NCBI GenBank assembly: GCA_009377605.1
Contig: WHTT01000011.1
Coordinates: 63,010 to 108,273, forward strand
Origin: Luteitalea sp.
GTDB taxonomy: Bacteria > Acidobacteriota > Vicinamibacteria > Vicinamibacterales > Vicinamibacteraceae
DNA length: 45,264 nt
Direction of reading: 5' to 3'
Under the pieces are notes generated by a model, which worked only from the letters and a program-made list of their open reading frames with translations, made no database searches and was not told where the DNA came from. The position numbers were made by a program, and so were the translations under genes. Shown here piece after piece: positions 23,741 to 44,896 of the stretch (positions are counted from its first letter, which is position 1; the number at the start of each line of letters is the position of its first letter).

Positions 23741-23771
23741 GCAAGTCCCGTGAGCTGGACGCGGGCCGTTC

Positions 23772-27151: not shown

Positions 27152-27170
27152 CCGTGTTCACCGACCCCTG

Positions 27171-27576: not shown

Positions 27577-27592
27577 GCGCCCGCCACGCCGC

Positions 27593-27643
27593 AACAAGTC
27601 CGGGCGTGAGATTGCCACGCCGAAAGGCGATCTGGATCTAAGG
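27593..27643 (+). pseudogene. Scar of a second toxin type (ATPKGDLDL)
   Basis: Right after the orphan antitoxin the DNA reads NKSGREIATPKGDLDLR. This matches the C-terminal signature of the intact phage-type HigB toxin at 29936 (KKSRRAIATPKGELDL). Only about 17 codons remain, with no start. It is probably a leftover of another toxin gene that once sat here. Confidence 0.6.
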
Positions 27644-27667
27644 GTGTCGTCGAAATGGGAGCCTATG

Positions 27668-28346: not shown

Positions 28347-28731
28347 GAGTCCTCCCGATCCGTCTCACTACGAGAGACGATCAACCGTGTCGACCTGTGA
28401 CAGGAGAGGCGTATCGCGGATAGAGATCGTCTTCATGTGCACATTGTGCATCTGGCGACGCATGGGGTCCGAACCATTGGGGCATCGGCGAGGGAACCCT
28501 CCGTTGGTGTATGTGGGCGGGCATCAGCGTGGCGTCGACAGACGATTCCTACGTACGTTCGTAGTGACGTGAAGCCATATGCGGCGCACCCTCATTTGCA
28601 GGTCGCACGTGTCCGTGGCCCAGGCCCATCTCGGCGCTCTTCGAGCCGGACCAAATGCTCGGCGCCAGGCAACGGCAGCGGCGTGAGTAGCACGCCGTCG
28701 GCGACACTGAACATGAACGAGGAGTGTCGTC
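28347..28731. other. Intergenic stretch, no gene recognised
   Basis: About 385 bases between the epimerase pseudogene and the collagen-like gene. No coding frame looks real. ATGTGCACAT (28435-28444) is a perfect 10-bp palindrome of a kind some PadR proteins bind, but with no supporting context. Confidence 0.4.
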
Positions 28732-29406
28732 ATGCGCAAACATTGGTTGAGATCAGTCACGATTATCATTGCGGCGGTCACGACGGTCGCGATCGTCGTG
28801 GCCACGATTACCAGCGCCGTTGCCTCGATTCCGGCGGCCGACGGGCGCGTGGACGGTTGCTTCGCGGTGACCGACCGGACGTCGGGGACAGGACTGCTCG
28901 GTCCAATCGTCACACTGGATCGGCAAGGCACGCTGCGCGCGATCGACACGGAAGCTGGCGAGCAGTGCGGAGACGACGAGCAGGCCCTCACGTTCAACGC
29001 CAAAGGCGAGCAAGGGGATCCCGGGCCGCAGGGACCTCCGGGCGCTGTTGGCCCGCCCGGTCCAGTCGGCCCGGTGGGCCCGGTCGGACCCCAAGGCACG
29101 CCCGGCGATCAGGGACCGCCGGGCGAGCAGGGACCGCCGGGAGCTGGCCTTACGGGCTACGAGATCGTGACAAACTCCGGTGAAGTTCCGGACAATGGCC
29201 ATGAGCAACTGTTCGTCTACTGTCCAGACGGAAAGACAGTGCTCGGTGGCGGTCACTTCTCCTTCGTCGGGGTCAGGGCGGGCGTTTCCTTCCCAATCCA
29301 AGACTTTGCCTCTGGAGACGGCGAGGGATGGTCCGCGTCTTTCGAGGATAGCGGTGGCGACAATAGGAATGTCTCCGTTTACGCGATCTGCGCGGTGGTC
29401 GCGTAG
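28732..29406 (+). CDS. Secreted collagen-like protein, 224 aa
   Basis: Exported protein with a short collagen-type stalk. GAGGAG precedes the ATG. Residues 10-32 are a hydrophobic signal or anchor ([20 protein letters not shown]). A small domain follows with paired cysteines ([18 protein letters not shown]). Residues 92-136 are 15 uninterrupted Gly-X-Y triplets ([20 protein letters not shown] and on). The C-terminal beta domain ([20 protein letters not shown], then [18 protein letters not shown]) could trimerise and display at the surface, as in other bacterial collagen-like proteins. The gene is intact although it lies among pseudogenes. Its role, perhaps adhesion or matrix, is inferred. Confidence 0.85.
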
Positions 29407-29447
29407 GGCGTATCGTCGTTTCTCAGCCGGCAGTGATGGGCTCGGCC

Positions 29448-29473
29448 GGCGGTCGCCTGGGCGGCTGACCGCC
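29448..29473. terminator. Possible terminator hairpin after the collagen-like gene
   Basis: GGCGGTC and GACCGCC pair perfectly with a 12-base loop, 41 bases after the stop codon. There is no T-run. Assignment is by position only. Confidence 0.35.
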
Positions 29474-29587
29474 TGAGCCCGTATAGCGTGCCTCTACTCA
29501 CAGTGACTCCCTGCTGACACACTCCCCGGACTGCCGACACAGCCGGGTTTCTTCACGTGTCCGCGGGAAGGTAACGCCAAGACGCAG

Positions 29588-29780
29588 TATCCCTCCCTCG
29601 ATTTGCCAGACGCGTATGCCGTCATCGCGTACTGTCTGCGCCATCGCGTTTGAGGTTGATGTCTATCTAGAAGAGAGGCGCCAACATCGTGAGGTGGTTC
29701 GCAAAGACATCGAGTCGAGGTTCGATGCTCGAGGTATTCGTGATCGGTTGCTTGCCCGGTGCCATCAGCATCTGATCTGA
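29588..29780 (+). pseudogene. DUF433 antitoxin remnant, frameshifted
   Basis: First frame: YPSLDLPDAYAVIAYCLRHR (29588-29647). After a frame change at 29648-29651 the text continues EVDVYLEERRQHREVVRKDI, ESRFDARGIRDRLLARC, to a stop at 29778-29780. Together this is the C-terminal part of a DUF433-type antitoxin (yPxLxLxxvYaALAYyxxHrxEID). The 5' part with the start is missing or unrecognisable. A DUF5615 toxin start follows four bases after the stop, the native order of such pairs. Confidence 0.7.
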
Positions 29781-29783
29781 GCG

Positions 29784-29822
29784 ATGCTACGGCTGGCATC
29801 AGACGAGGATTTCAACAACCGC
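29784..29822 (+). pseudogene. DUF5615 PIN-like toxin, 13-codon N-terminal stub
   Basis: ATG at 29784 begins MLRLASDEDFNNR, matching the start of DUF5615 toxins (xLRLxxDExFxxR, with the first catalytic Asp). Similarity ends at once and no family sequence follows. With the frameshifted antitoxin just upstream, it marks a destroyed DUF433-DUF5615 module. An intact module of this kind exists at 44236-44764. Confidence 0.6.
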
Positions 29823-29908
29823 TCGATTTGTGGGCAAGCGCCTGGATCAGATTGTCAGCCGCAATCGAAGCAAGGTCTTGGCGTCTGTGGCGCGCGAGTG
29901 ACCGGCGT

Positions 29909-29937
29909 TTGGCGATATGCCTGTAGTGGCATACAAT
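29909..29937 (+). promoter_or_regulatory. Sigma70-type promoter with operator for the TA pair
   Basis: TTGGCG (29909-29914), a 17-base spacer, and TACAAT (29932-29937) form a good -35/-10 pair. Inside and over it lies the inverted repeat TATGCC-N6-GGCATA (29916-29933), placed where a bound HigA-type antitoxin would block polymerase. The downstream gene start overlaps the -10 box, so the true translational start may be slightly later or the message nearly leaderless. Confidence 0.6.
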
Positions 29938-30331
29938 GAGCATGCGGCCACCGAGGACGTCGCCCCAACCGGTCCCGAAGCCTGTTCGCTGGGTGGCCTC
30001 GAGCAAGGATGACCTGAGCGCGTTTCCGAACGACGTCAAGACCCGGGTCGGCGGCGCGCTGTGGGATGCGCAGATCGGCCTAAAGTCGTCGACGGCAAAG
30101 CCTCTGAAGGGGTTCGGCCACGCCGGAGTGCTCGAGGTGGTGGTGGACTTCGACGGGAACACGTTTCGGACGGTCTACACAGTGCGGTTCTCGAAAGCTG
30201 TCTACGTCCTTCACGCGTTCCAGAAGAAATCTCGGCGTGCGATTGCCACGCCGAAGGGCGAGCTGGATCTCATCGGAGCTCGGCTCGCTCGCGCCAGAGA
30301 GGACTATGAAGCATGGCTAAAAGGCCGCTGA
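29936..30331 (+). CDS. HigB2/Gp49-like toxin of a type II TA pair, about 131 aa
   Basis: RelE-fold ribosome-dependent mRNA interferase of the phage-derived Gp49-like group. The core reads PKPVRWVASSKDDLSAFPND, then KPLKGFGHAGVLEVVVDFDG, YTVRFSKAVYVLHAFQKKSR and RAIATPKGELDLIGARLARA. The K-G-F-G, Y-T-V-R-F and HAFQKKS motifs carry the conserved basic residues of the family, so it appears active. ATG 29936 or ATG 29942 may be the start. It overlaps the antitoxin gene by 19 bases, so toxin and antitoxin are translated together. It is the only complete TA pair within the 27-31 kb graveyard. Confidence 0.9.
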   Translation: MSMRPPRTSPQPVPKPVRWVASSKDDLSAFPNDVKTRVGGALWDAQIGLKSSTAKPLKGFGHAGVLEVVVDFDGNTFRTVYTVRFSKAVYVLHAFQKKSRRAIATPKGELDLIGARLARAREDYEAWLKGR

Positions 30332-30657
30332 TTCCCGTGGCGCCCAGTTCCGGCAACGTGTTCGCCGATATCGGCGTTCCGGAGCCGGAAGAGGAGTTGG
30401 CTAAAGCACAGCTCGCGAGCCGAATTCGCGAGATCGTTCGGAGCAGTCGCCTCACTCAGGTCGCCGCTGCTGCCGTGATGGGCATCGATCAGCCCAAGGT
30501 CTCGGCCTTGCTGAGTGGCCGACTGACAAACTTCTCGAGCGAACGCCTGATGCGTCTCCTGACCAGGCTCGGGCAGGACGTGGAGATCGTGGTCAAGTCG
30601 AAGCCGCGACGACGGCAGCGCGGTCGCATTCGCGTTGTTGAAGAAGCCCGCGCCTGA
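30313..30657 (+). CDS. HigA-like XRE antitoxin, 114 aa
   Basis: Antitoxin partner of the toxin at 29936. The N-terminal arm (NVFADIGVPEPEEELAKAQL) is the typical NVFxDLGxxxxEExxxKAxL of this antitoxin group. The HTH follows: ASRIREIVRSSRLTQVAAAA, then VMGIDQPKVSALLSGRLTNF, and SSERLMRLLTRLGQDVEIVV. The end is very basic (KSKPRRRQRGRIRVV). It should neutralise the toxin by binding and repress the pair through the inverted repeat at 29916-29933. The start overlaps the toxin 3' end, as in other toxin-first pairs. Confidence 0.92.
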   Translation: MAKRPLIPVAPSSGNVFADIGVPEPEEELAKAQLASRIREIVRSSRLTQVAAAAVMGIDQPKVSALLSGRLTNFSSERLMRLLTRLGQDVEIVVKSKPRRRQRGRIRVVEEARA

Positions 30658-30700
30658 TTGAGTACCACCGCGACGACGCCATCGCGCACCGCATGGCAAT

Positions 30701-31178
30701 GAGACAGCAGGTGGCGCGGGTCGATGCCCGCGCGGGCGGGCCGCTGCGGCACCGTGACCGTGATCGTCTGCGGCCCGGTGGCTATGCGATGCATCGCCAG
30801 GAAGAGTGGCGCGCCCTGTGTCTCGCCGGCTTCCGCCGGCGCGTAGACGCCGATCTCCAACAGGTCATGCATCGGCATGTCCGTCTCGGTGCCCGCCGTG
30901 TCCACCACGACCTTTCGCGCGTCCACCTCGAGCGTGACCTGCCAGGTGCCTGCTTCGGTCTCCGCCGTGGCCCGCTCCGTCTCGAGCTCCCAGAACGTGT
31001 TCTTCTCGAAGAGGTCGTGTAGCAGGTATTGGAACGAGTCTGGCGTGACCGCCTGCAGCTCCCGGTAGAGATCCAGTGAGGTCGGCAGGGGCGGCGCTCC
31101 GGAACCATGCTTCTCGAACAGGCGCCGGAGTACATCGTCGACCCGCTCCTTGCCGATGTACTCGCGCATCGCTGGTTC
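30701..31178 (-). pseudogene. C-terminal remnant of ABC permease / M1 aminopeptidase fusion
   Basis: Minus-strand text AMREYIGKERVDDVLRRLFE, then DLYRELQAVTPDSFQYLLHD, LFEKNTFWELETERATAETE, and a beta-domain (GTWQVTLEVDARKVVVDTAG) to GIDPRHLL. This matches the end of the large membrane proteins that combine an ABC-2 permease with an M1-peptidase ectodomain. The permease and the zinc-peptidase active site (HExxH) are absent. Past HLL the native end is lost and the frame drifts on. It joins the ATPase remnant across a palindromic repeat. Confidence 0.75.
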
Positions 31179-31195
31179 AGCACGTCGATGGCCTG

Positions 31196-31262
31196 CCCTG
31201 AGCTTGCCGCCCCTCGACTCTGCTCGGGGCGACCCTGAGGTGCTCGAAGGGCCGAAGGGTCG
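31196..31262. repeat. Palindromic repeat at the pseudogene junction
   Basis: Contains GCCCC-N12-GGGGC (31209-31230) and two direct CCCTGAG units (31196-31202, 31233-31239) followed by GTGCTCGAAGGGCCGAAGGG. It resembles the widespread intergenic CCCTGAGC..TCGAAGGG type palindromes. It lies exactly between the ATPase head and the peptidase tail, so it may have entered at, or helped create, the deletion. Confidence 0.55.
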
Positions 31263-31448
31263 CCGAGGTGGATGTGGCCCTCGTCCGGCTCCTGCAGGGT
31301 CGCGATCGTGCGCATCAACGTGGACTTTCCCGACCCGTTGGGGACCGAGCAGGCCGTACATCCCCACCGGAATCGTGAGCGTCACGTCCTTCAGCGCTTG
31401 CACGCCGTTCGAATAGGTCTTGGATACATTGCGAATGCGCAACTCCAT
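31263..31448 (-). pseudogene. ABC transporter ATPase, 5' remnant with frameshift
   Basis: Start MELRIRNVSKTYSNGVQALK, then DVTLTIPVGMYGLLGP is a standard ABC ATPase head. One extra C in a CCCC run (31340-31343 on the plus strand) breaks the frame. Removing it restores the Walker A region GPNGSGKSTLMRTIATLQEP followed by DEGHIH. Signature, Walker B and the rest are gone. It lies 12 bases behind the DUF4173 gene and was probably the third gene of that operon, with the permease/peptidase as the fourth. Confidence 0.85.
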
Positions 31449-31460
31449 AGCCGTCTCCTG

Positions 31461-33158
31461 TCAGGCGGCACCGGGCGCCGCGCATTTCTGATCCGACCCC
31501 ACCATCGACCGCAGCCGCGCCTCGTGCGCGCGCACCGCGTCACTCGCCCGCGCCGCCGACCAGTTCCAGCTGCGGATCGAGCGATCGCGGTCCGGCGGCC
31601 AGCGCCGCAGCATGTGTCGCGCGAGCGGACACTGCACGTCCTGTGGCAGAGCGGGCAGCGCATCGATCAGCACGGGCACCGCGTCTGCGCTCAGCGACGT
31701 CGCGTACGCGACGTCGAATCGGACGGGCGCGTCGGCCGACGCCATCCGCGCCACGTTCGCGCGCGCGATGACCGCGTCCGGGTTGATGACGAACAGCAGC
31801 GCGACCGTCGCGAGGCCGGATGCCAGCGTCCCGAACGCGAACGCGCCGCGGCGGCCGCGCAGCACGGTCGCGGCGAGCCAGCACAGCATCGCGCCGATCC
31901 AGATCAGCAGCACCATCGCGTAGAACCGCGACTCGGTGAGCCCGTAGCTCGCGTGGTAGAGGCGCAGCCGCTGGAGCGCCGACGCGGTGATCGCAAGCAC
32001 CAGCCCGATCTGCACGCCGGCGAGACCGCGGAACACGAGGACGTCGCTCTGGCTGCGACGGTCGAGGAGCCAGTCGGCCGCGAGTAGGACCGGCACGACG
32101 AGGACGACCGCGAAGACCAGCTCGAAGAAGCCGCGCCGCGCGTATTCGGCATACGTCAGGTCGGGCGTGATCTGGACGAGCGTGTCGGCGCCGAAGAGAT
32201 ACCGGAACTGCACGATCACGAAGACCAGGAACAGCAGGTCGATCGCGGCCAGCGCCGTCGCGACCTCGGTAATGCCGAACGGCTGCCATTTCGGCGCCGG
32301 AACGCCTCGGCCGTCGATCCCTTGCCTGCGATCCGCGGGCGACGGCAGCTCCGTGCCCGTCAGAAAGCCGCGCAGGTACCCGGTCGAGAGCCACGCAAGG
32401 ATCGAGAACAGCAGGATGTGACTCGCGATCCGCTCGAAATCGAAACGAAGCACGTTCGCCACCAGCTCCGCGAACACGGCGTCGGCCGACATGAACAGCG
32501 CCCCGAACACCACAACGAGAGGCGCCGCGATCACGAGGCCGCGCGCGACGGCCGCGGCACGGCGCCACCCGGCCGCGCGGCCGGTCTCGACACGCGGGGT
32601 GGACCGCGTCGCATCCACAAGCGCAAGCGCCGCGGCCGTCCACGCGTGCAGTGCGCCCAGCGCCAGCGCGCCGGCGTATCGAAGCACGCCCGCGCGACGC
32701 ACCCAGGCCGCGGCGAGACGATGAGCCGCGAGCGCGAAGGTCAACGTTGCGCAGCCAAGCGCGAGCAGCTTCAGCGGCGGAGCGTCGCGCCACGCGAGCC
32801 CGGCCGCAAACACGACGCCGATCACCAGCCACGCGACGCGCTCGCGGTCCAGTGCGAGAGCCGCGCGGCGGTGCAGCGCGAGCGCGGCGACCGCGACCGA
32901 CGCGACCCACAGCGACAGGTTCAGACCCACCGGGCCGTCCGGAGCGCGCAGCAGCGCATCGCCCACCGCGCCGAGGACCACGCCCGCCACGAGCAACGCC
33001 GCGACGGAGGCGCGTGGCACGGGATAGAGGCGAGCCGCCCCCACGAGCGCCTGGCCAATGACGCTACTGTCGGAGTACCCGTCGGAGGTGCCGTGGCCGA
33101 CTCGTTCGTCTTCGATCCGCCCGCGACCCGCCTGCCCGGAAACCGCGTCGTCACTCAT
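31461..33158 (-). CDS. DUF4173 (DUF4153-like) membrane protein, 565 aa
   Basis: Polytopic inner-membrane protein with roughly twelve hydrophobic segments, e.g. [40 protein letters not shown] and [20 protein letters not shown]. The family hallmark [20 protein letters not shown] is present, followed by [28 protein letters not shown] precedes the ATG at 33158. Its ATG overlaps the stop of the UppS-like gene (ATGA), so the two are translationally coupled. The ABC ATPase remnant behind it was the next gene. Function is unknown; association with regulators and transporters suggests an envelope role. The frame is intact, though the downstream partners are broken. Confidence 0.88.
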
Positions 33159-33814
33159 ACGCTCCGCCTCCTCCCATCCCCATTCATCGGTGTCGCACCA
33201 GGCACGCGGCCGAACCGCCGCTCACGCCCGTGATAGTCCGCCAGCGCTCGCGCCAGGTGGGACGCGTCGAAGTCCGGCCATCGCCCATCCGTGAAGTACA
33301 GCTCCGCGTACGCGCACTCCCACAGCAGGAAATCACTCAACCGCTGCTCGCCGCCCGTCCGGATCAGCAGGTCCACGGCCGGGAGCAGCTCGCCTCTGCC
33401 GATCGCGTCCCGCGACGAATAGTCGACGGCCAGGTTCAACCGCAGCCGATCGCACGCCGCCGTCGCGGCCTCCGTCGCTTCGATCGCACGTACCAGCCGC
33501 TTCGCCAATCGATCGCGACGGCCGATCACTCGCACGCGCACGCCTTCCGCCACGCAGCGAGCCGTTTCGCCGCGCAGGAACTGCTCGAACACCTTCATCA
33601 GCGGACGGACCTCGGACGCCGGCCGATGCCAGTTGTCCGACGAGAACGCGTAGAGCGTCAGCATCCCGATGCCGTGCGCGGGCGCGCACTCGACCGTGCG
33701 CCGCACCGCGCTCGCGCCCGCGCGGTGTCCGTCCGTTCGCGGCCGCTGTCGCGCGGCCGCCCATCGCCCGTTCCCGTCGGGGATCACCGCCATATGCAAG
33801 GAACTTTGTATCAT
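33155..33814 (-). CDS. Undecaprenyl diphosphate synthase-like cis-prenyltransferase, 219 aa, shortened
   Basis: Makes long-chain cis-polyprenyl diphosphate, the lipid carrier for wall and glycan precursors, if active. Motifs are [17 protein letters not shown] (catalytic Asp and the GNGRWA loop), [40 protein letters not shown] and [20 protein letters not shown]. Between SRDAI and PAVDLLIRT it lacks about 30-40 residues that normal UppS proteins have, so it is shorter than the usual 245-255. This could be a specialised paralogue or an in-frame deletion. I take ATG 33814; a TTG at 33829 and an ATG at 33793 are alternatives. It heads the DUF4173 operon. A housekeeping UppS probably exists elsewhere. 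Confidence 0.85.
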
Positions 33815-33819
33815 AAAGT
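33803..33819. promoter_or_regulatory. Imperfect dyad ACTTT-N7-AAAGT at the operon start
   Basis: ACTTTGTATCATAAAGT is an AT-rich dyad overlapping the presumed start of the UppS-like gene. Similar dyads are common at PadR-controlled promoters in Acidobacteria, and DUF4153-type loci often come with PadR. No padR gene is adjacent here. Operator role is inferred. Confidence 0.4.
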
Positions 33820-33857
33820 AGGCTCGCAAAAAAAGGGTACGCCTCGCGGACGCGACG

Positions 33858-35178
33858 TCACTCCCGTCCAGCGAATGCCTCAGCCGCCGCGAGCGCCAGT
33901 GAGCGCACCGCGTCTTCCGCGAACGAGACGTTCGACGTAACGGCGATCACGAGGCCGTGATCGGGGAAGGTCATGAAGGAGGTCGAACCGCCCACCGCAC
34001 TCCCGCCGTGGCCGATCAAGCGAACCAGGCTTCCGTTGAGAGGAACACGCCGCACGAACCAGCCGAGGCCGTAGCCGGTCGGATCGCCCGATTCGAGCTG
34101 GCCTTCCGTCCGCAACAACTCGATGGTGCCGGGTTCGAGCAGGTCGTCTCGCGACATCGCCACACCGAATCGAACCAGGTCACTCGGCGTGGAGATGAAG
34201 CCGTCGGTGCCCCAGAGACAGGTGTGGTCGACGTTGGGCGCATCCTGAAGGCCAAACCGCGTGTTCATGGCGAACCCAGGGAAGTAGAGGCCGGCCCGGT
34301 TCGGCACGGTGTGAGCGTAACCGCCCGCTGGGCCGCCCGGAGCGTCGAGCATGGTGTTCCTGCATCTGGAGGGGCGCGAAGACCTTGCGATCCATGAAGT
34401 CGAGGAACGGTTCGTCCGCCTCTGCTTCAACGACAGCGCTGACCAGGACCCACCCGTAACTCGAATAGCGGTAGGCCGTGCCGGGTTCGAACAGCAGTGG
34501 GTCGCCTGCGAAGAGGTCGAATGCATCGGTCACCCCTTCGCAGGTCCGGTGAGCAACCGGAAGCTCGTCGTCGGGGTTGATCTGCGCGTCTTCTCCGGCC
34601 CCGTAGTGGCCGAAGCCAGCCACATGTTCCATCAACTCCCGCGTCGTGACCGGCCACCGCTTTTCGGGGAAGCTCGGCAGGTAGTCCTGCACGGGGGCGT
34701 CGAGGTCGACGAGGCCTTGCTGATGCAGCAGGCCCACCGCGGCCGCGGTCATGGGCTTGGACACGCCGCCAATGCGAAAGCGCGTTCGTGGCGTGATCGG
34801 TACGCGCCCCCGGAGGTCCGCCCACCCAAGCGCCTCGGCCCACGCGAGCTCACCGTCGACCGCCACCGCGATGGACACGCCGGGCAGGTTCTCATCGATG
34901 ATCAGATTCCGCGCGAGGAGCTGGACGTGCTCAACCGCGTCGGCGTATCTGGCGGCCGGCGGAGCGAGGACTTCCGACGGCAGCGCCAGCGGGTCGTCGC
35001 CGGGGCTCGGGACGAGATAGTAGCCACAGGCGGCAAGTATCGGCGCGGTTGCCAGTGTGAGCAGCAGGCGGCCTGCCGTCCCGCGGATCGATGTGGATGT
35101 CGCCACGGTTCTTCGTAGAGTCATCTGGTTCCTCTCAACCTCAATCGTCGGGTTCGAAGCGGGCGTGAGCGTGTCCAT
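33858..35178 (-). pseudogene. Beta-lactamase-fold (class C / serine hydrolase) lipoprotein, broken
   Basis: Family S12-like hydrolase with a lipoprotein signal (LLLTLATAPILAACGYY; starts at 35178 or, with GAGAGG upstream, 35124). The first frame runs through LARNLIIDENLPGVSIAVAV and HQQGLVDLDAPVQDYLPSFP to KVFAPLQMQ. At 34359-34360 one extra base shifts the frame, and the family end continues in the other frame (MLDAPGGPAGGYAHTVPN, then IGHGGSAVGGSTSFMTFPDH) to a stop at 33858. The active-site SxxK also reads GVSK (RIGGVSKPMTA), so the nucleophilic Ser is Gly by a single-base change, and YxN reads YSS. Both point to loss of function. The HGG motif survives. Confidence 0.85.
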
Positions 35179-35543
35179 CGATGGCCTCCCGCAGGAAGCA
35201 TCGGTGGTCGGGCGGCGGAAGTCCTCACCGGGCCGTGAGCGTCGCGTGAGATCTTCGTGAGATCGCGAGAGGATGGGTCAGGCTCCAGCGGTCCAGCCAC
35301 TGCGCGGCCGAACCGGCCAGGCCGCCGCCAAGGGCGGCGCGGCCGATGAGGGCTGCGGTGCGCCAGGACCGAGCGATGGACTCGGCCACCGACAGACCCG
35401 CGCCGATGCCCGCTCCGCCGCCGGCGTCCGGTGGGCCACCTCGACGCGTCCAACCTCGCTGAACCCGCCGTTACCTATGTGCTACCTAGGCCGGAGAACG
35501 GCCCAGCGCATGAGGTGCGATGTCACGTTTGTCGTAGGAATTG
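35179..35543. other. Intergenic stretch with a possible unrecognised coding fragment
   Basis: About 365 bases. On the minus strand one frame reads AGIGAGLSVAESIARSWRTA, then ALIGRAALGGGLAGSAAQWL, which has the composition of a membrane-protein fragment. It has no family match I can name and no clear start. Otherwise I see no gene. Confidence 0.35.
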
Positions 35544-35590
35544 TGGAGGCGGCGGTCGGACTCGAACCGATGACCTGCTGATTACGAAGC
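35544..35590 (-). tRNA. tRNA-Thr(CGT) 3' half: probable attachment-site scar
   Basis: Minus strand from the anticodon loop (TTCGTAA) through the anticodon 3' stem TCAGC, the T-arm (ATCGG TTCGAGT CCGAC), seven acceptor bases (CGCCGCC), discriminator T and encoded CCA. The 5' half (acceptor 5' strand, D-arm, anticodon 5' stem) is absent: the sequence beyond 35590 is unrelated. Integrases that use tRNA genes rebuild exactly such 3' halves, so this is most likely an att site of a lost or decayed integrative element. It is not a working tRNA. Confidence 0.75.
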
Positions 35591-35689
35591 CCCTGCTTGT
35601 CAAAAACTAAGTGATTGATTCCGCAAGAGTTAACGCGCAGGTCGCCGCCAGACACTTTTTCAAGGGGCCCTGGTGGCGTGGTTCGCTCT

Positions 35690-36085
35690 GCCGCCGGCCT
35701 ATGCCGCAAACATGTCCTGCAGACGTTGCAGCACGCCCAAGATCGTCTCCGAACCAAGCCGTCCAAGCCGCTTCAGAAGGCGTTCTGTGTCGACCGTTCG
35801 GAGCGGCGGCTGCAGTGCCCGCCGGTCGTCGAATCGCTCGAGGAGGCGGGCGACGACCTCTTCACGTTTCTGCGCTTTCCGCGCGGGCAGTGGAAGGCCC
35901 TGCGCACCACGAATGCGCTTGAGCGGATCAACGAGGAGTTTCGCCGACCGACCAAGACGCAAGCCAGCCTCCCCAGTCAGGATGCCGTGTTGCTGCTCCT
36001 CTTTGGTTTGCTGCGCACCGGGCAAGTCAAGCTGCGGGCGCTCGATGGGTACCATGAGATGGGTGCGGTGCAGGAGGCCGCGTGA
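35690..36085 (+). pseudogene. IS256-family transposase, C-terminal fragment
   Basis: Tail of a mutator-type (Transposase_mut) DDE enzyme. The clear part is VVESLEEAGDDLFTFLRFPR, then WKALRTTNALERINEEFRRP and LPSQDAVLLLLFGLLRTGQV, then KLRALDGYHEM. The final catalytic Glu sits in NALERINEEF. The region before (RKHVLQTLQHAQDRLRTKPS) is only weakly family-like, and the first two catalytic Asp residues are absent, so more than half of the enzyme is gone. The element's right inverted repeat survives at 36137-36157. It lies directly beside the tRNA-Thr scar. Confidence 0.88.
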
Positions 36086-36163: not shown

Positions 36164-37183
36164 TCAATGAAGGCTCGCACGGTGTTGTTTCAAGACGTCC
36201 ATCGTATCCCTGAGGCTGGTTTCTAGGGAAACCTCTTGGCGCCAGCCCAGCTCACGCTTGGCGCGCTCGTTGCTCGCATTCCAGATTCTCCCGCGTACCG
36301 TCGCCAGGAGCTCCGGAATCATCACCCGCGGGGACCCCAGGAGGCGGTGGTTCAGGCGATCGAACAACGGCACGACGCCCAGCATGAAATCCGGCATTGT
36401 CATGAGCGCCCGCCTGACATGCGGATCGATCCGGTGCATGGTCTCGATGATCTCGATGAAGCTGGGCAGTCTGTCGTTGCACACGATGAAACGCCCCCCG
36501 CAGTCGCTCTCGGCCGCGAGGACATGTCCGGACACCACGTCGCGAATGTCCACATAGGGGAGATTCGACCTTGGCGCGCCGAGGCGCATCGTCCCCAGCA
36601 TGATCCCCTCGATGACGTCGATGGTAGGGGTGTTCCGCGTGAAACCGGGTCCCCCGATCGAGCCTGGAAGCACGATGACGAGCGAGAGCCGAAGGTCGCG
36701 TGCAAGCTCCCAGGCTCGCGTCTCGGCCAGCGTCTTGGCCCGAAAGTACGGCACCGAGAGGTCAGTGGCCCAGTCTGCTTCTGTGCTCGGTGGCGCGCCG
36801 GGCGCCGTCAGCGGAAGCGTGACGAGCGACGAGGTCAGCACGATCTTACGGACCTTTGCGTCAGCTGCGGCACGCAGCGCGTTCTCCGCGCCTTCGACGC
36901 TCGCGCGGAGCACATCATCCGCGTCGTGGCCCCCGGGTACGTACGCGTATACGGCCGCCACATGGAACAGGACGTCGGCTCCGTCGAACGCGGCGCGCAA
37001 TTGATCGGGCCGATAGAGGTCCGCTTCCACCAGCTCGAGACCTTCCATCGCGACGAGATGCGCCGTCTTTTTCTGATCCGCGAGCGAGCGCACGCCGGCC
37101 CGTACGGTGTAACCGCGCTGGAGCAGGTGCTTGCACAGGTTGTTCCCGAGATGCCCGTTGGCGCCAGTGACGACTGCCCGCAT
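36164..37183 (-). CDS. NAD(P)-dependent dihydroflavonol-4-reductase-like epimerase, 339 aa
   Basis: Extended short-chain dehydrogenase of the DFR/3-beta-HSD group. The Rossmann motif is MRAVVTGANGHLGNNLCKHL, the DVLFHVAAVYAYVPG block is typical, and the catalytic YxxxK is in SVPYFRAKTLAETRAWELAR with the upstream Ser in VLTSSLVTLP. The family ending is NERAKRELGWRQEVSLETSL. All key residues are present and the length is normal. The substrate, an aldehyde/ketone or nucleotide sugar, cannot be told. Its stop is only a few bases from the IS256 inverted repeat. It starts 19 bases from the end of the upstream ADOP gene and may share its transcript. Confidence 0.9.
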   Translation of the reverse strand: MRAVVTGANGHLGNNLCKHLLQRGYTVRAGVRSLADQKKTAHLVAMEGLELVEADLYRPDQLRAAFDGADVLFHVAAVYAYVPGGHDADDVLRASVEGAENALRAAADAKVRKIVLTSSLVTLPLTAPGAPPSTEADWATDLSVPYFRAKTLAETRAWELARDLRLSLVIVLPGSIGGPGFTRNTPTIDVIEGIMLGTMRLGAPRSNLPYVDIRDVVSGHVLAAESDCGGRFIVCNDRLPSFIEIIETMHRIDPHVRRALMTMPDFMLGVVPLFDRLNHRLLGSPRVMIPELLATVRGRIWNASNERAKRELGWRQEVSLETSLRDTMDVLKQHRASLH

Positions 37184-37202
37184 CGCTTCCCTCCGTAAAC
37201 GA

Positions 37203-39647
37203 TCACTCCTGGCGCAGCACCCGAGCTGGCTCCATGCGCATCGCGCGGAGGGCCGGTATCACACATGCCGCCGTGGCGACCATCACGAGGACGAGGATCG
37301 TGCTGACGTAGGCCGTGCCGTCGGTCGGCGGCACCTCGAAGAGCAGCGACGTGAGGAGACGACTCAACGCGAAGGCTCCGAGGACGCCGAGGACGAGACC
37401 AACCATCGCCACTGTCAGCCCTTGGCGCAGAATCATGCCGAGCACGCGTCCGCCGTCGGCCCCGAGGGCCATCCGGATCCCGATCTCCTGCCGTCTCTCG
37501 GTCACGGTGTACGACATCACACCGTACGTGCCCACGGCTGCCAGCGCCAGCGCGACACCCGCGAAGATGCCGAGTAGCAGCGTGAGGAAGCGCGGCTCGG
37601 CGACCGAGGCGCTGACGACGCCCTCGAGTGTGCGCGGATCACCGAGTGGCAGGCTTGCATCCAGCCGAGCCACTTCTCGCCTGACCGCAGGGAGCATGCC
37701 GAGCGGAGACGAGGCCGTGCGGAGCACGACGTTCATGCTACGCGGAATACTAAACGCCGCGGCCTGCGGGATGTGGAAGTACATCTCGGTGCCGGTCTCT
37801 TCCTCGAGCCCTCCCTGCTTCACGTCCTTGACGATGCCCACGACCGTTAGCCACGGCACGTCCGAGTCCGGCCGGATCCGTCGTCCGATTGGGTCTTGAT
37901 CCGGATAGAAGACGCGTGCGAAGGTCTCGTTGATGAGTAGAACCGGCGCGCCCCCGGCACCATCTGCGGGACCGAAGGCCCGACCGTCCACGAGCCGAAT
38001 GCGCATGGTCTCGAGATAGTCGGTCGTGACGAACTGCCAGTAGTCCACGTTCGGAATCGCCATCCCGGACGCGGGCTGATAATGATAGCCCTCGAGCTCC
38101 ATGTCGTTCGCGTTCACGTCGCGATGCGGCGGCAGCCCGCTCATGACCGCAACGCCGCTCACGGCCGGGAGCCCGCCAAGGCGATCGCGGAGGCGATCGT
38201 AGAAGGCGACCTGGGATGCACCATCCGGATAGGTCGCCTCCGGCAGGAACAGCCGAAACGTGAGCAGGTTGTTCGGGTCGAAGCCCGGATCCACGCGTAA
38301 GAGCGTAGAGAAGCTCCGCAGCATCAGCGCCGAGCCAACGAGGAGCACGACGGCCAGCGCCATCTCGGAGACCACCAGCAGCCGCCGTGCGCGCAGCCGC
38401 GCCGAGCCAGCGGTGGCACGCTGGCCACCCTCGCGCAGGGACATCGCGACAACACGCGCGGAGAGATTCATGAGAGGCGCCAAGCCGAACAGCACACCGG
38501 TGAGCACCGACACCGCGGCCGTGAAAGCCAGGACGTTGCCGTCCACGGTGATCTCATCAAGGCGCGGGATGCTCTCACCGCTCGTGGCGAGCAGCACGCG
38601 AAGGCCTACCCAGGCCAACAAGACGCCGAGTCCTCCACCCACAGCGGCGAGCATGAGGCTCTCGGTCAGAAACGGCCGCAGGAGGCGCCACCGCCCGGCG
38701 CCAAGCGCGGCGCGAACCGCGATTTCCTTCTGGCGTGACTCTGCACGCACGAGCAGGAGATTGCCGACGTTGGCGCAGGCGATGAGCAGTACGAACCCGA
38801 CGGCGCCGAGGAGCAGGAGCAGTGCGGGCCGGACGGTTCCGACCATCTCATCCTGCAGGCCGTGTGCAATCACGGCGTGGTTCTCCGGGTGTGGCGCGTG
38901 TGTGCCTCTAAACTCCTCCTGCCACCGCCCCATGAGCGAGCCGAGCTCGGCCCTCACACCCTCGAGGGTGACACCGTCGCGCATGCGTGCGATGACGTTC
39001 AGAAAATGACTACCGCGGTTCTCCCGATTCGCCGGATCGAGCGCCACGGGCGTCCAGACCTGCACACCGGCATCGTCGATGTCGAACCCAGGCGGCATGA
39101 CGCCGACGACCTCCCGGCTCTCCCCATTGACGGGAATGCTCCGTCCAACGACCGCCGGGTCGCCGCCGAGCACAGCGCGCCATAGCTCGTCGGAGATCAC
39201 GGTGACGTCCGGACCACCGGGCAGGTCTTCTTCTTCCGTGAACGTGCGCCCTAACTGCGGCCGCACACCAAGCGTGGTAAAGAAGTCAGCGGTCGCGGCC
39301 GCCGAGGTCACACGCACCGGCCGTTCGATGCCCCCGACGCTCGCGAGGCCGGTGCGATATCCGCCGAGACTCTCGAACGAGCGGTTCCACTCCCGAAGCT
39401 CGAGAAACTCAGGCGGTGAGATCCAGAACCGATCGAACCCGAGCGATGGGAACTGGCTGGCCACGGAGAGGAGTCGGCTGGGTTCGGCGTACGGCAGCGG
39501 ACGCAGGAGCACGCCGTTGATCACGCTGAAGATGGCGGTGTTCGCGCCGATGCCCAGCGACAGGGTCAGGATGGCCACCGCGGCGAAGCCAGGGCTCCGT
39601 CGCAGAGCAGCGAGCGCGTAGCGGAGATCTGCAAGAATTCCGGACAT
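37203..39647 (-). CDS. ADOP-family ABC transporter permease (MacB/FtsX-like), 814 aa
   Basis: Second full ADOP permease. It lacks the charged N-terminal prefix of the copy at 2577 and opens directly with MSGILADLRYALAALRRSPG and TM1 (GFAAVAILTLSLGIGANTAI). The MacB periplasmic domain includes SLGFDRFWISPPEFLELREW and VNGESREVVGVMPPGFDIDD. The first FtsX block has LIACANVGNLLLVRAESRQK and the second GVALALAAVGTYGVMSYTVT, ending MRMEPARVLRQE. It is probably complete. The gene is followed by the reductase at 19 bases. Upstream, TATAG/CTATA half-sites at 39682-39705 resemble the PadR-linked palindrome of the first ADOP locus, though no padR gene is adjacent. Confidence 0.93.
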   Translation of the reverse strand: MSGILADLRYALAALRRSPGFAAVAILTLSLGIGANTAIFSVINGVLLRPLPYAEPSRLLSVASQFPSLGFDRFWISPPEFLELREWNRSFESLGGYRTGLASVGGIERPVRVTSAAATADFFTTLGVRPQLGRTFTEEEDLPGGPDVTVISDELWRAVLGGDPAVVGRSIPVNGESREVVGVMPPGFDIDDAGVQVWTPVALDPANRENRGSHFLNVIARMRDGVTLEGVRAELGSLMGRWQEEFRGTHAPHPENHAVIAHGLQDEMVGTVRPALLLLLGAVGFVLLIACANVGNLLLVRAESRQKEIAVRAALGAGRWRLLRPFLTESLMLAAVGGGLGVLLAWVGLRVLLATSGESIPRLDEITVDGNVLAFTAAVSVLTGVLFGLAPLMNLSARVVAMSLREGGQRATAGSARLRARRLLVVSEMALAVVLLVGSALMLRSFSTLLRVDPGFDPNNLLTFRLFLPEATYPDGASQVAFYDRLRDRLGGLPAVSGVAVMSGLPPHRDVNANDMELEGYHYQPASGMAIPNVDYWQFVTTDYLETMRIRLVDGRAFGPADGAGGAPVLLINETFARVFYPDQDPIGRRIRPDSDVPWLTVVGIVKDVKQGGLEEETGTEMYFHIPQAAAFSIPRSMNVVLRTASSPLGMLPAVRREVARLDASLPLGDPRTLEGVVSASVAEPRFLTLLLGIFAGVALALAAVGTYGVMSYTVTERRQEIGIRMALGADGGRVLGMILRQGLTVAMVGLVLGVLGAFALSRLLTSLLFEVPPTDGTAYVSTILVLVMVATAACVIPALRAMRMEPARVLRQE

Positions 39648-39681
39648 AAGCGTCTCTCGTCATGCTGGCTGATGCGACGAA

Positions 39682-39705
39682 TATAGTGGCTCCGATTGTC
39701 CTATA
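39682..39705. promoter_or_regulatory. TATAG/CTATA half-sites upstream of the second ADOP gene
   Basis: TATAG (39682-39686) and CTATA (39701-39705) form an inverted pair with 14 bases between, 35 bases upstream of the ADOP start. The same half-sites, with a shorter spacer, occur at 5686-5700 between padR and its neighbour. A shared PadR-type regulator acting in trans is possible. Confidence 0.35.
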
Positions 39706-39864
39706 GCAAGCGGTGTGTGCGTACCGTTTGGCATCAAAGCTAGGAACAGGTGGTGTGCTAGCAACTTCACACACTACGCCTCATCGGTCCGAGCGTCCAT
39801 GCGCTGTTCGACCGGGAGTTGGCTGCAGTTGGGGCGCCGGACGCGACTACTTCTTCACCACGGA

Positions 39865-40566
39865 CTACCTGCCGCTCTTCTTGACGGCGGTCTTCCTGAT
39901 GGTCGACAGGTCCCCGACGACGGTCGTGGTTATGCCGACGTTGGAGGGATCTTCAAAGCGGACGCCGACGCTGCGTATCTCGAGAAAATCGCCACGGGCT
40001 GAGACCGCCGCGATCAGCAACGACACCGTGACGCCGAAGTAGATCTCTCGGGGGACCAGGCGCTGCGTGGACAGACGTGTCGGCGCCGTCGTCGGCGTGC
40101 TGTTGGCATTAGTGGTGTGGCCGCGGATACCTCCGTCAGCACCGAGGCGGGGAGCGACGAACCGGTTATTCGCAAAGATCCGCCGGTTGCCATCCCAGAT
40201 GTGCGTGGCCCGAATGTCCAGTCGGTCCTTGTCGGTCGTTTCGTAGTTGATGAACAGCTCCCGCGCAACCGTACGTCGTCCGGCATTCAGCGCAATCGCG
40301 GTCGGTATTGCAAAATGACACCAGAAATTGCCGGACTTTTGTTGGTCTTCGGTGCCGGAATCGAAGATCACGAACCGTGAGGCCCAACCGATGCGAAAGC
40401 ATGCAGCGGCTCCGTGGCCACCCAGGTGGATGATGTCGCCGGTTGCGTCGATGTTCACGTTGTTCCTGAGGGCGTTCCGCACGGTACGCTTGCTTCGGGC
40501 GTTCGGTGCTCCCACTCGCTCCAGCAGAACGCTGTTGCCGTGCACCCACGAATCACGAATGCTCAT
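39865..40566 (-). CDS. Unrecognised protein, 233 aa
   Basis: I cannot name the family with confidence. AAAGGGGAG precedes the ATG at 40566, a good start. The sequence has MSIRDSWVHGNSVLLERVGA, a beta-rich centre (FRIGWASRFVIFDSGTED), then NFWCHFAIPTAIALNAGRRT and RLDIRATHIWDGNRRIFANN. The pattern S-W-x-H-G-N ... W-x-H-F-A-I-P-T ... H-I-x-D-G is shared, from memory, with small bacterial beta-sandwich proteins of unknown role. The last 75 residues are less conserved in style, with a hydrophobic stretch (IYFGVTVSLLIAAVSA). No signal peptide. It is a single gene between the ADOP promoter region and the IS200 stub. Confidence 0.65.
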   Translation of the reverse strand: MSIRDSWVHGNSVLLERVGAPNARSKRTVRNALRNNVNIDATGDIIHLGGHGAAACFRIGWASRFVIFDSGTEDQQKSGNFWCHFAIPTAIALNAGRRTVARELFINYETTDKDRLDIRATHIWDGNRRIFANNRFVAPRLGADGGIRGHTTNANSTPTTAPTRLSTQRLVPREIYFGVTVSLLIAAVSARGDFLEIRSVGVRFEDPSNVGITTTVVGDLSTIRKTAVKKSGR

Positions 40567-40630
40567 TCGTCTCCCCTTTCATTGACACAGCCTGCCCGAT
40601 TCGAACCGCGTCGCACTATTGTAGAGCTAT

Positions 40631-40800
40631 CTCGGCCTCCGCGGATCGCTGTATGCGGAATTGCGACGGTACCTGGGCGAGGTCTTCCCGAAGCTGGCGA
40701 CGCAAAAGGAGAGCCGGATTGAAGAGCGGCACCTGCTGCCCGATCATGTGCACATGCTGATCGCAATTCCGCCGAAGTATGCCGTGGCACCCTACGCGAA
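40631..40800 (+). pseudogene. IS200-like TnpA (Y1/HUH transposase) fragment
   Basis: The frame reads LGLRGSLYAELRRYLGEVFP, KLATQKESRIEERHLLPDHV, HMLIAIPPKYAVA. This is the central part of IS200/IS605 TnpA, with the HUH motif in PDHVHM. The N-terminus is missing, and after KYAVA the family sequence (IGFIKGKSA and the catalytic Tyr) is replaced by PYAKRL. From 40801 an ADOP tail continues in another frame. Not functional. Confidence 0.85.
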
Positions 40801-41019
40801 GCGCTTGCGCTCGTGCTGATCGGTCTGCTCGTTGGGCTCCCGTCGGCTTTCCTTGTCTCGCGCACGATGGCGACACTCTTCTACGGTATCCCGCCGTCAG
40901 ATCTTGCGGCGCACGGTGCCGCTGTGGCCACGCTGATCGTCATCGCTGGTTTGGCAGCCTACCTACCTGCAAGACGGGCTTCACGCGTCGATCCTATGGT
41001 GGCGCTCCGCGCGGAGTGA
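40801..41019 (+). pseudogene. ADOP/FtsX permease C-terminal remnant
   Basis: From 40801 the frame reads ALALVLIGLLVGLPSAFLVS, RTMATLFYGIPPSDLAAHGA, AVATLIVIAGLAAYLPARRA, SRVDPMVALRAE and a stop. These are the last two helices and invariant tail of an ADOP permease. It abuts the IS200 transposase stub with no gap, so two unrelated gene ends were joined. Nothing else of the permease lies in the window on this strand. Confidence 0.9.
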
Positions 41020-41865
41020 CGCGTACTACGCCGACCGTGTTAGCGATGCCTCATCCTTCGCGACATCAAAGCAGCGACCGGAGCGCTCGATTGAGTGAGC
41101 GGGTTCGGTGAAGTCTTCGGCCAGGCTTCAACCACATATGAGCTTGTTGAAAACCTCAGGGTTGGTTAACCTCCTCTTCCGTGTCGCCCAGGAAGTCAGG
41201 GTCAGCGTCATTATGCCGCGATTGTCCGTAGCCGATAAGTCCAGCAGCCGGAATACGCCACCGATTCCATGCGTCACAGCCACGAAAACCAGCCAGCCCG
41301 ATAATCACGCGACTCCTGGTCGGTCGGTGGCGCCATTTGGTGGGTGTGGCTCGGCTCGGGTCAAACCGCGAAGGATTATTCCCGCATCGCCCAGTAGCGA
41401 TCATCCCATGCGACAATCCTCGCGAGCACGATCAGCGACTGCAGTCTGAGACAACGGGCACTTAGAGGCTGTCGATCGCGGCAAGCTCCCACTGCAACTC
41501 TTCGCCTTCGAGCTGGAAGCAGGGGACGCCCTGTTTGAGGCGTATCGCATGCTCCCATTCACCGACGCGCCCGAACGGCTTCTGGAGGCTCAGAAGGCGC
41601 AGCAGGACCGGCTGAGAGCAGAGGCGTCAATTCTTCGGAAATCTTGGAGGCACCGCCGGATTTGAACCGGGATGGAGGTCTTGCAGAGCCATCCGCGGTG
41701 CTTTTCTCGCGATCACCATGCCGGCCGGAGTCCTCGGAAATCACACCTTCTCGATCGGATGCGGGGAATCGCCCCCGCGGTCATCGTGTGCGACGTTGGT
41801 GAAATTGGCCGTCTATGGATCGGCGTGGGCACAGTCCTGGCCAAATCAGCAGGAGCAGCGTCAGT
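41020..41865. other. Gene-poor stretch between mobile-element debris and the DUF4062 operon
   Basis: About 850 bases without an intact gene. One plus-strand frame (41450-41665) has coding-like composition: HLEAVDRGKLPLQLFAFELE, AGDALFEAYRMLPFTDAPER, LLEAQKAQQDRLRAEASILR, with a stop inside the tRNA-Cys scar. It has no start codon at a sensible place and I do not recognise it. It may be the end of a lost gene of an integrated element. The rest shows nothing I can support. Confidence 0.45.
41645..41686 (-). tRNA. Degenerate tRNA-Cys(GCA) 3' half: possible attachment-site scar
   Basis: Minus strand: anticodon loop CTGCAAG, anticodon 3' stem ACCTC, T-arm CCCGG TTCAAAT CCGGC, acceptor GGTGCC, T and CCA. 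About one base is missing in the acceptor and one in the variable region, and the 5' half is absent. Similarity begins at the anticodon loop, as for the tRNA-Thr half at 35544. It is probably an att remnant of a second integrated element; not a functional tRNA. Confidence 0.55.
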
Positions 41866-44211
41866 CTAGGACATGACTTCCTTTAGCTCCCCATCGAGCT
41901 TCGTTGCGTAATAGCCGGACATCGGTTCTGGAGCGTACAAGAGGCGATCGAGCCAAGTGACGACGTTGTAGTAGTACGTGCCTTTTCCGATATAGTCCCG
42001 CAGGAGTTCCAAAAGCTGTGCGTTCTCCAGCCGCATACGCAATAACGCCACGGCCGTGAGGCGAGCCTCTTCGTCATCGTGTGACAGCAACTCCTTGAGG
42101 AACCGCACCACCTCAGCATCGTCAACGTCCCGCACTAATGCGAGAGCAGCGCGACGCATGTCGCGGGTTTCGGCCGCGATCAAGACTTTCGCGGTGGCAA
42201 GCCTGTCCGACGCCAGGCGACGAATCCCTTTGAGAGCGGTAATCCGGTCGTCACCGAAACTGGTCCGCGCGATCTCCAGCAGCCGCTGAACATCACTGGC
42301 GTCACCGTTGGCTGCGATGATCTCAAGAGCAGCACTGCGCGTCCTGTCGTTGGTCAACAGTTGCCGCGCGACAGCCACATCATCCCGCGTTGAGTCGAGG
42401 GCCAGTGCAGCGATGGCCTTCTCGATAGACTGTTTAGCGATAAAGTCGTGCAGTTCAGCGAAGTCTTGCCTTATCTTGGCGGCCGCCGCAGGTCCAAACA
42501 CACTCTCCAAGTGTTCGTCTGACGACTCACGGATCCGCTGAAACCCATGGTTGATGTCGGCTCGAACGACTTCTCTTGAGATCTCGCCGCGCTCCGTTAG
42601 CAACTGATAGCTGATGCGGCCATCAAGCGAGTACCAGTCTAATGCAAGCTTCAGCTCATCACTACTCTGTCGGCCGAGACGCTCGTACCGCTCGTCGTCA
42701 GCGTCTCGCGCCTCCGGACTTCCGCCAAACAACGGACCGACGCTTAACAGCGATGGCCAATTGGCACGGCGGCGCCTGCGCCGCGGTCCTGCTGCGCCGC
42801 TTGCGGGCCCGGGACGCTTTCTTTCCATCTCCGCGGCGGCTTTCTCGCTCAAGTCCGTGACTGGCATGCTGCTGAGGGCTCCCAGCGATGGGTCCGACAG
42901 CTTGGGAATGCTCTCGGCAATCAACTGTTTCAGTGGGTTAGATAAGAACTGTGGATCTGGGCTCTTAGGCAAGAACTGATCTAAATCGCGACCGGCGTCG
43001 AGCCAGGCTTGCAGCCAGCCGACGCGCGATTCGAGCCACGTTCCGCTGGCACGACCGAGAGTCTTGACGTCTTCAGCTGTGGCCACATCGACCAGGTACG
43101 CCCAAGCCTCATCGTGAACTTGCGCTGGAAGCGCCGGAAATGTCTCGGTGAGAAGTGATTCACGAAATTGAGGAAAGATGGGAACGGCTGCCCCGCGCAG
43201 GACGGAAAAACTAGTCGCTCTGGCTCCAGAATTGTCGTCGTAGACGATGACACTCAACAAGCGTACGATAATCGCCCGCGTGCCAAGATCTTTTAGCCAG
43301 AACCATCCTGGACTCACATCGAACTCGTCAGCCAGGAGCGTCCGAAACAGGACGTACATCTCATCGTCTGTGGCCAGCAGGCGCTCGCGGTAGCGATAGA
43401 GAGTATTCAATTCATGAGGTGGCATCAGGGAGGCAGACGTTCGGGACGCTGCCACGAGAGCCACGGACAACAGGAACACGCGAACCGCAAGGAATGCGGT
43501 CTCGTCTGGATCGTCGATCGACTTGGCAACTTCGTCTAGATCCCCGCTCGCGAACGCTGGGGCCAACGAGTGAGCGAGCTTCGCGAGTTGGTCACCGGCA
43601 CCCGGAGTAGCAGTCCCCGAGGGTTCACAGGGAGCATTCGACCCTACGACAGAGGCGGGTTCGGATGGCCCCTGCGGCCATCTGGTTGAGCCGCTGCTCA
43701 AGTCGAGTACGTGCCGAATTAGGTAGGTCCTCAGCATCTTCTCCCATGCGGCGACGTCTTCGAATTCCTTGAAGAGAACCGTCTTGCTCGCCACGAGGGA
43801 TTCCCTGAAAGCGATGACGCGCTGCAGCTGTGCTCCCGCGTCGGCAATCTGTGCGAGGTCAACCTTCTTAAAGAACACCCAGATTTCTGGAGACGGTGTT
43901 CGGTCACGGCGCTTCACCGCAATCGAGAACTCTTCTTCGAGCCCAGAAGAGAAGAGGGAGTCGGTGGCAGGTGCGGTTCCCCATCGCCGCCAAACCGCGC
44001 CAATAAACAAGTCACAACGTTCGACGTCCCTATTAATCAGAGCTTGCGGACGCCCGTACCCTGGAAGCGTGTCTTCCCAACCCAACAACTCGATGGCCCA
44101 GTTCGTTGGTCGCAATACGTCATTGACGTCGGCAACCACGTCAAAAGCGCGCTGTCGCTCGGGAGCCAAATCAGAGGGCGAGGCGATGAAAACGGTCAAT
44201 ACATTACGCAT
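41866..44211 (-). CDS. DUF4062/TIR-like N-terminus with C-terminal HEAT-like repeats, 781 aa
   Basis: Large cytosolic protein, third gene of the operon behind the DUF433/DUF5615 pair (24 bases after the toxin stop). I take ATG 44211; a TTG at 44223 is possible. About 1-165 is DUF4062-like: NVLTVFIASPSDLAPERQRA, NRDVERCDLFIGAVWRRWGT, then SGLEEEFSIAVKRRD (conserved Glu) and PEIWVFFKKVD. This fold is related to TIR and nucleoside-deoxyribosyltransferase-type domains often found at the N-terminus of bacterial conflict proteins. About 210-475 is helical and unassigned. About 480-505 is a very basic linker with six Arg in a row. About 590-781 are HEAT-like helical repeats (SAALEIIAANGDASDVQRLL, TRDMRRAALALVRDVDDAEV). 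I see no NTPase motif. A sensor (HEAT) plus effector (DUF4062) design is inference. Confidence 0.8.
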   Translation of the reverse strand: MRNVLTVFIASPSDLAPERQRAFDVVADVNDVLRPTNWAIELLGWEDTLPGYGRPQALINRDVERCDLFIGAVWRRWGTAPATDSLFSSGLEEEFSIAVKRRDRTPSPEIWVFFKKVDLAQIADAGAQLQRVIAFRESLVASKTVLFKEFEDVAAWEKMLRTYLIRHVLDLSSGSTRWPQGPSEPASVVGSNAPCEPSGTATPGAGDQLAKLAHSLAPAFASGDLDEVAKSIDDPDETAFLAVRVFLLSVALVAASRTSASLMPPHELNTLYRYRERLLATDDEMYVLFRTLLADEFDVSPGWFWLKDLGTRAIIVRLLSVIVYDDNSGARATSFSVLRGAAVPIFPQFRESLLTETFPALPAQVHDEAWAYLVDVATAEDVKTLGRASGTWLESRVGWLQAWLDAGRDLDQFLPKSPDPQFLSNPLKQLIAESIPKLSDPSLGALSSMPVTDLSEKAAAEMERKRPGPASGAAGPRRRRRRANWPSLLSVGPLFGGSPEARDADDERYERLGRQSSDELKLALDWYSLDGRISYQLLTERGEISREVVRADINHGFQRIRESSDEHLESVFGPAAAAKIRQDFAELHDFIAKQSIEKAIAALALDSTRDDVAVARQLLTNDRTRSAALEIIAANGDASDVQRLLEIARTSFGDDRITALKGIRRLASDRLATAKVLIAAETRDMRRAALALVRDVDDAEVVRFLKELLSHDDEEARLTAVALLRMRLENAQLLELLRDYIGKGTYYYNVVTWLDRLLYAPEPMSGYYATKLDGELKEVMS

Positions 44212-44235
44212 CGGGGAATTCAAGCGACGGGTGAT

Positions 44236-44764: not shown

Positions 44765-44794
44765 GTTCGACGTCCGAGGTTCTGGGCCCAGTTT

Positions 44795-44821: not shown

Positions 44822-44896
44822 CAACCGTGTCGGCGTACCGAAAGTCGTCAAGTTCCCCGCCGGAGTTCGCGGCTTTGCTGCTCGAGAGCTGGAGGC

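Follow-up and report, generated by a model that had tools for sequence, protein, structure and literature searches.

How did the 3' half of a tRNA gene come to stand by itself in this stretch of DNA, and what does it mark? The stretch, called the window here, comprises 45,264 nucleotides at the right end of contig C11 (G000:C11:63010-108273). The initial annotation had described a sequence that is tRNA-like exactly from the anticodon loop to the encoded CCA and has no 5' half, and had read it as an integration scar at tRNA-Thr(CGT). Our analysis indicates that 35544-35588 is very probably an attR-type scar left by a tyrosine-integrase element at tRNA-Thr(CGT), and that it probably lies at the far end of stacked insertions.

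The tRNA-Thr(CGT) half in the window

The features on both sides of the half are listed below; G001 is another genome of the same genus.

35544-35588, minus strand: displaced 3' half of tRNA-Thr(CGT), tRNA positions 32-76, from the anticodon loop to the encoded CCA; very probable attR-type scar
35589..35634, minus strand: element-side end next to the half, putative attP arm; agrees with the arm at G001's distal half in 38 of 47 alignment columns
35608..35621, minus strand: 14-mer GAATCAATCACTTA, within the element-side arm of the scar
35615..36085, plus strand: open frame encoding a C-terminal fragment of a Mutator/IS256-family transposase (PF00872, residues 67-134, profile positions 303-370 of 379)
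36164..45264: rest of the island present on C11, with an NAD-epimerase, a MacB/FtsX permease, a DUF4062-HEAT protein, a DUF5615 protein and the istB of an IS21 element
1..35543: non-island side of the scar; blocks near 8410-11834 and 20813-22336 match G001:C22, reversed, to the right of its distal half

The half is identical to the intact tRNA-Thr(CGT) of its own genome at 43 of 45 bases, and the observation in the initial annotation was confirmed. The two changes are T to C at position 65 and G to C at position 71. In the standard tRNA numbering, position 65 pairs with position 49 in the T-stem and position 71 with position 2 in the acceptor stem. Since each change removes a pair, the T-arm and the acceptor strand, which had been described as intact, are not fully so, and the half seems to be in decay at the cost of one stem pair per difference. 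Neither ARAGORN nor Rfam at its gathering score called a tRNA in the window.

A scan of the 6.79 Mb assembly with a 31-base core, allowing up to 3 mismatches, found three copies, all of them perfect and one inside the intact gene, and 0 matches were obtained with the reversed pattern as control. As there are three copies in the genome, one of which is the gene, the half is not a dispersed repeat occurring in unrelated contexts.

The GC content to the right of the scar (35590-45264) is 62.2%, compared with 65.1% to its left (1-35543), and we place the island that ends in the scar on the right, which refines the first reading. The IS256 debris that had been noted beside the half is real and consists of a C-terminal piece only (Mutator family, IS256 group; E = 4.6e-13); its frame lies inside the island end, where the start of the frame overlaps the arm. 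The istB gene is cut off by the end of contig C11. A strong hairpin was observed at 44987-45048, just downstream of the cut istB (about -55 kcal/mol, 80 bases folded). None of the 21 PF00589 matches of the genome lies on C11, and none lies in the tail of contig C2 beyond the second half described below.

The intact gene and the proximal element

The intact gene, a second half and an integrase gene were found on contig C2.

C2:162674-162749: sole intact tRNA-Thr(CGT) of the genome
C2:162750-170207 (L035:9750-17207): element between the intact tRNA and the C2 half, 7.5 kb, 64.7% GC
C2:168873-170126, minus strand: tyrosine integrase (PF00589 with arm-binding PF13356), starting about 80 bases from the C2 half
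C2:170208-170252: second 3' half, perfect over 45 bases, downstream of the intact tRNA and in the same orientation

The window half is thus a 3' fragment whose parent tRNA gene is present in full at another place in the genome, as is the case for attR sites at island boundaries, and the sole intact gene carries the same 3' half save for the 2 substitutions. A BLAST search with the C2 stretch as query also hit the window (E = 8e-14). With the intact gene, a matching direct repeat and a tyrosine integrase beside that repeat all present, the reading as an integration scar stands.

The C2 element also encodes a replication-initiation-like protein, a gene in which prohead protease and capsid are fused (PF25209; phrog_4523) and one weak match to a small terminase subunit (E = 8e-4), while no large terminase, portal or tail gene was found among the 7 ORFs searched. 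Judging by its gene content, it is a putative prophage remnant or satellite. Relatives of its integrase in named genomes were found at 7 loci (32-36% alike; six in Alphaproteobacteria and one in an Oligoflexales record), and relatives of its capsid protein at 46 loci in viral contigs. The tail of C2 beyond the half has a GC content of 61.8%, compared with 65.7% outside on C2, and is thereby as low in GC as the DNA to the right of the window scar (62.2%).

Layout in a related genome

In G001 the intact tRNA, an integrase-bearing element, a half, an island and a further half follow each other on one contig of 318 kb, C22.

G001:C22, at 173828: intact tRNA-Thr(CGT)
G001:C22, at 189896: half 1, next to an integrase gene (188369-189796)
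G001:C22, 204184-204228: half 2, the distal half

The DNA left of the tRNA on C2 is collinear with the DNA left of the tRNA in G001 (78-84% identity). If one repeated gene is counted a single time, C11 and C22 have eight DNA matches of at least 100 bp, each of them in reversed orientation. Five of them are in monotone order, at 71.5k, 72.9k, 74.3k, 83.9k and 98.5k of C11 against 317k, 306k, 305k, 227k and 204k of C22. The blocks off this order lie at 26.5k (77%, 304 bp), at 69.2k (84%, 1.7 kb, a gene that C22 carries twice) and at 90.2k of C11 (86%, 407 bp, with its partner within the proximal element of G001), and the weaker protein matches between the two contigs (26-45%) are likewise out of order. 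Window positions 20813-22336 have an 81% orthologue on G001:C22, the next best match in the four genomes searched being 45%. The roughly 13 kb directly left of the scar have no DNA match to the right of G001 half 2. An HTH/antitoxin-like gene region at 27171-27577 of the window is 86% identical to C22:187735-188141, inside the proximal element of G001.

Moreover, the scar and G001 half 2 have a 46-bp element-side arm in common. Because C2 and C11 both match the flanks on G001:C22, C11 in reversed orientation, and because the distal arm is common to both genomes, we infer that a single array most plausibly spans both contigs, C2 forming one end in forward and C11 the other in reversed orientation. 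The window scar is then probably the att site at the distal end of a tandem array, the intact gene of which is on a different contig. In G001 the distal island has att sites at both ends, halves 1 and 2 on one contig, which is the arrangement expected of a cis-mobilizable element; in G000, if this is one island, the halves on C2 and C11 would be the corresponding ends. The distal interval of G001, from half 1 to half 2, contained no relative of the C2 integrase.

Between C2 and C11, no overlap of contig ends and no assembled sequence linking them was found. C2 ends in a repeat of 53-55 bp that is common to seven other contigs and stands at a contig end at least six times. We considered whether C2 and C11 end in the same IS copy and rejected this, since the letters of the C2-end repeat are absent near the end of C11.

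Sequences beside the halves

Three copies of the 14-mer GAATCAATCACTTA were found in the genome, one in the arm of the scar, one at C2:162753-162766, where three bases separate it from the CCA of the intact tRNA, and one on contig C31. Close versions of it follow the CCA of the intact tRNA and stand in the arm of the distal half in G001. We consider GAATCAATCACTTA a probable candidate for an arm-type binding site of the integrase.

Of 56 distinct intact genes in the order, 14 carried a related 9-mer, ACTTACGGG, within the 60 bases that follow the CCA; upstream it was present in 2/56, on the other strand in 2/56 and in shuffles in 3.5. The 9-mer had been picked after the sequences had been seen and was searched with up to 2 mismatches. 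At 26 halves it was found downstream six times and upstream twice. These counts are suggestive of putative integrase arm sites, and since other arm types exist, the assignment stays a cautious one.

Survey of the order

We scanned 162 genomes of the order for 3' and 5' patterns of tRNA-Thr(CGT). More than one 3' copy was present in 16 of the 116 genomes with the 3' pattern (25 extra copies), whereas more than one 5' copy was present in 1 of the 113 genomes with the 5' pattern (Fisher p = 1.7e-4). Leaving out G100:C17 and G013:C53, which lie at a contig edge, 15/116 genomes with 23 extra copies remain (p = 3.4e-4). The G013:C53 copy is the intact gene split by a contig break and overlaps the end of contig C98 by 55 bases. 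The extra 5' match in G079 reads TTTGTAATC at the anticodon and belongs to another threonine tRNA, and the other 5' match of this genome is at a contig edge. Taken together, the survey shows one tRNA gene in repeated use as an insertion point across the order.

We examined 26 halves from 23 stretches, the contig-edge copies G011:C86, G013:C53 and G023:C40 having been excluded beforehand. An integrase frame was found within 0-124 bases on the 5' side of six of the 26 and on the 3' side of none; these six integrases were also the seeds of the profile, so that the number six is circular and the side is not. The upstream DNA was shorter than 3000 bases for five of the 26 halves (183 bases for G001 half 2) and the downstream DNA for three. 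An integrase piece does lie 3' of two of the excluded copies, G013:C53 and G023:C40. At G013:C53 (L184), this piece is on the 3' side of the intact tRNA-Thr gene, and some elements may have their integrase at the other end.

In G161, where the intact tRNA-Thr(CGT) is on contig C8, four 3' halves are found on C10, C26 and C46, and three of the four are followed by an AT-rich arm resembling the one at the intact gene.

Discussion

We infer the position of strand exchange and the order of events as follows. The attP of an element would have recombined with the single tRNA-Thr(CGT), within its anticodon loop, by means of a tyrosine integrase. At the left end, the gene would have been restored by the copy of the 3' half that the element brought along. 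The original 3' half would have been pushed to the opposite end, and it can still be recognised there. Further elements entering the same gene would let scars stack up. The resulting array would consist, in this order, of the intact tRNA, the 7.5 kb prophage-like element with its integrase, the perfect half, the integrase-less low-GC island, the old half and the chromosome.

That the scar is real and lies at some other chromosomal place, either by insertion of a half-carrying element at a secondary site or by a rearrangement that moved the island end, is unlikely. C2 and C11 are separate contigs without overlap, three of the eight C11 blocks are off order against G001, and G161 has four halves on three contigs apart from the contig of the intact gene, all of which would fit such a displacement; however, G001 matches the flanks of both C2 and C11 on one contig, all eight blocks of C11 have the fitting orientation, and the arm is alike. 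It is very unlikely that the half is an artefact of a mis-join at a repeated tRNA half. The G000 assembly is fragmented (382 contigs), but the C11 half has two private changes and an arm of its own and so is not a copy of the C2 half, and a like junction of arm and half is independently present in G001. With only three near-identical copies in the genome, one being the gene, and the control pattern giving no match, a chance tRNA-like stretch or a dispersed tRNA-derived repeat is hardly conceivable.

A real possibility, to which we give somewhat less than even weight, is that the C11 half and the G001 distal half arose separately, from related elements that inserted in parallel after the species split. 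The two distal halves are alike at 43 of 45 bases, which exceeds the expectation from neutral drift (p = 0.003 at an assumed divergence of 20% and 0.012 at 17%), and they may for this reason be separate insertions; the arm, at 38 of 47, is less alike than the half. Moreover, the island interiors of G000 and G001 have a single DNA match of 76 bp in common, and directly beyond the distal half no sequence common to both was found. Yet orientation and neighbourhood are the same and the arm is similar, and a turnover of cargo driven by IS elements could equally give unrelated interiors. The scars in G000 and G001 would represent either parallel insertions of related elements or a renewed site. Parallel insertion, if true, alters the age of the scar and not its identity.

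The scar is of an ordinary and known kind, and what it probably marks is the outer limit of stacked islands at a repeatedly used tRNA gene. In the Islander report, 2083 islands fall in an anticodon-centred crossover class, and the 3919 islands include 125 tandems of two or more and 4 of three or more (PMC4383910). As in the islands described there, we found on C2 an intact tDNA and a displaced 3' fragment in the same orientation with a tyrosine integrase between them, and the crossover class is likewise anticodon-centred; unlike in those islands, the part of the island beside the window scar has no integrase match and the array is split over two contigs (PMC4383910). Since there is no integrase match beside the scar, the integrase filter of Islander would reject the window island.

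An apparently integrase-less island with att sites at both ends and an integrase-bearing neighbour also resembles the cis-mobilizable elements and tandem accretion described in another study (PMC5704250). The elements treated there are decayed conjugative or mobilizable ones, whereas here the neighbour resembles a prophage remnant and a mobilisation is putative, by analogy (PMC5704250). In a study on Dehalococcoides, many 3'-end repeats of one RNA gene, ssrA, lie within 100 kb, and islands with and without an integration module occur together with a conserved motif beside the repeat, as in our case; that system uses a serine recombinase and a 20-bp tmRNA repeat, whereas a tyrosine integrase and a 45-bp tRNA-Thr half are found here (PMC3146451). 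Partial tRNA genes have been recognised as attR sites before; those fragments were predicted as tRNA genes, whereas the window half was called by neither of the tRNA searches run here (PMC9897764). Our literature search, whose reach did not extend to subscription journals, found no paper on tandem genomic islands at tRNA-Thr in Acidobacteria, and the accessible text of a Vicinamibacter paper that mentions tRNA and integrase names no tRNA insertion site (PMC5900883).

The scar fixes one end of an island at base precision despite silent tRNA searches and no nearby integrase. Arrays of this type record gene gain in layers, which allows a comparison across species, and small units that apparently have no integrase make the movement of islands in trans a testable question.

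Such small units were observed in G040, on contig C61 (L074, G040:C61:332001-345632), where halves at 6112-6156, 7334-7378, 10118-10162 and 11032-11078 lie within 5 kb, at spacings of 1.2, 2.7 and 0.9 kb. Three are clear Thr halves with a common right end that runs on for about 100-117 bp past the half and are 85-91% alike including the half; the fourth combines the same Thr 3' part with anticodon letters that resemble Lys (CTT). One unit contains a DUF433 and a DUF5615 gene, another a Gp49-like toxin-type gene and an HTH gene, and these two pairs are putative toxin-antitoxin systems. The third pair consists of an HTH-like gene and a partner without a Pfam match. Neither an integrase match nor a relative of the C2 integrase turned up in these units. 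Because their right end occurs in only two of the 162 genomes (at three places in G040, and in G122 as a weak 47-base match), no integrase could be tied to them.

It is conceivable, if rather doubtful, that tRNA-Thr(CGT) acts in this order as an array platform at which integrase-less units are captured serially and moved in trans by the integrases of other elements, in a manner resembling integrons. The case is made by the 0.9, 1.2 and 2.7 kb units, two of three with a gene pair of the toxin-antitoxin type. By comparison with integrons, the tRNA half may then correspond to the recombination site, and the DUF5615 gene of the window island may be cargo of the same sort.

Further loci were seen in G000 itself. 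Another tRNA 3' half, with the anticodon-loop letters CCT and 89% like the Thr half, is found at G000:C13:76659-76704 (minus strand), 12.4 kb from an intact tRNA-Lys(CTT) at C13:89106-89181 (minus strand). Beside this tRNA-Lys(CTT) lies a weak integrase piece (C13:88407-88550), below the Pfam cut-off. At G000:C113:12460-14950 and at C175:593-3029 there are three tyrosine-recombinase matches in a row on each contig, resembling recombinase-in-trio elements.
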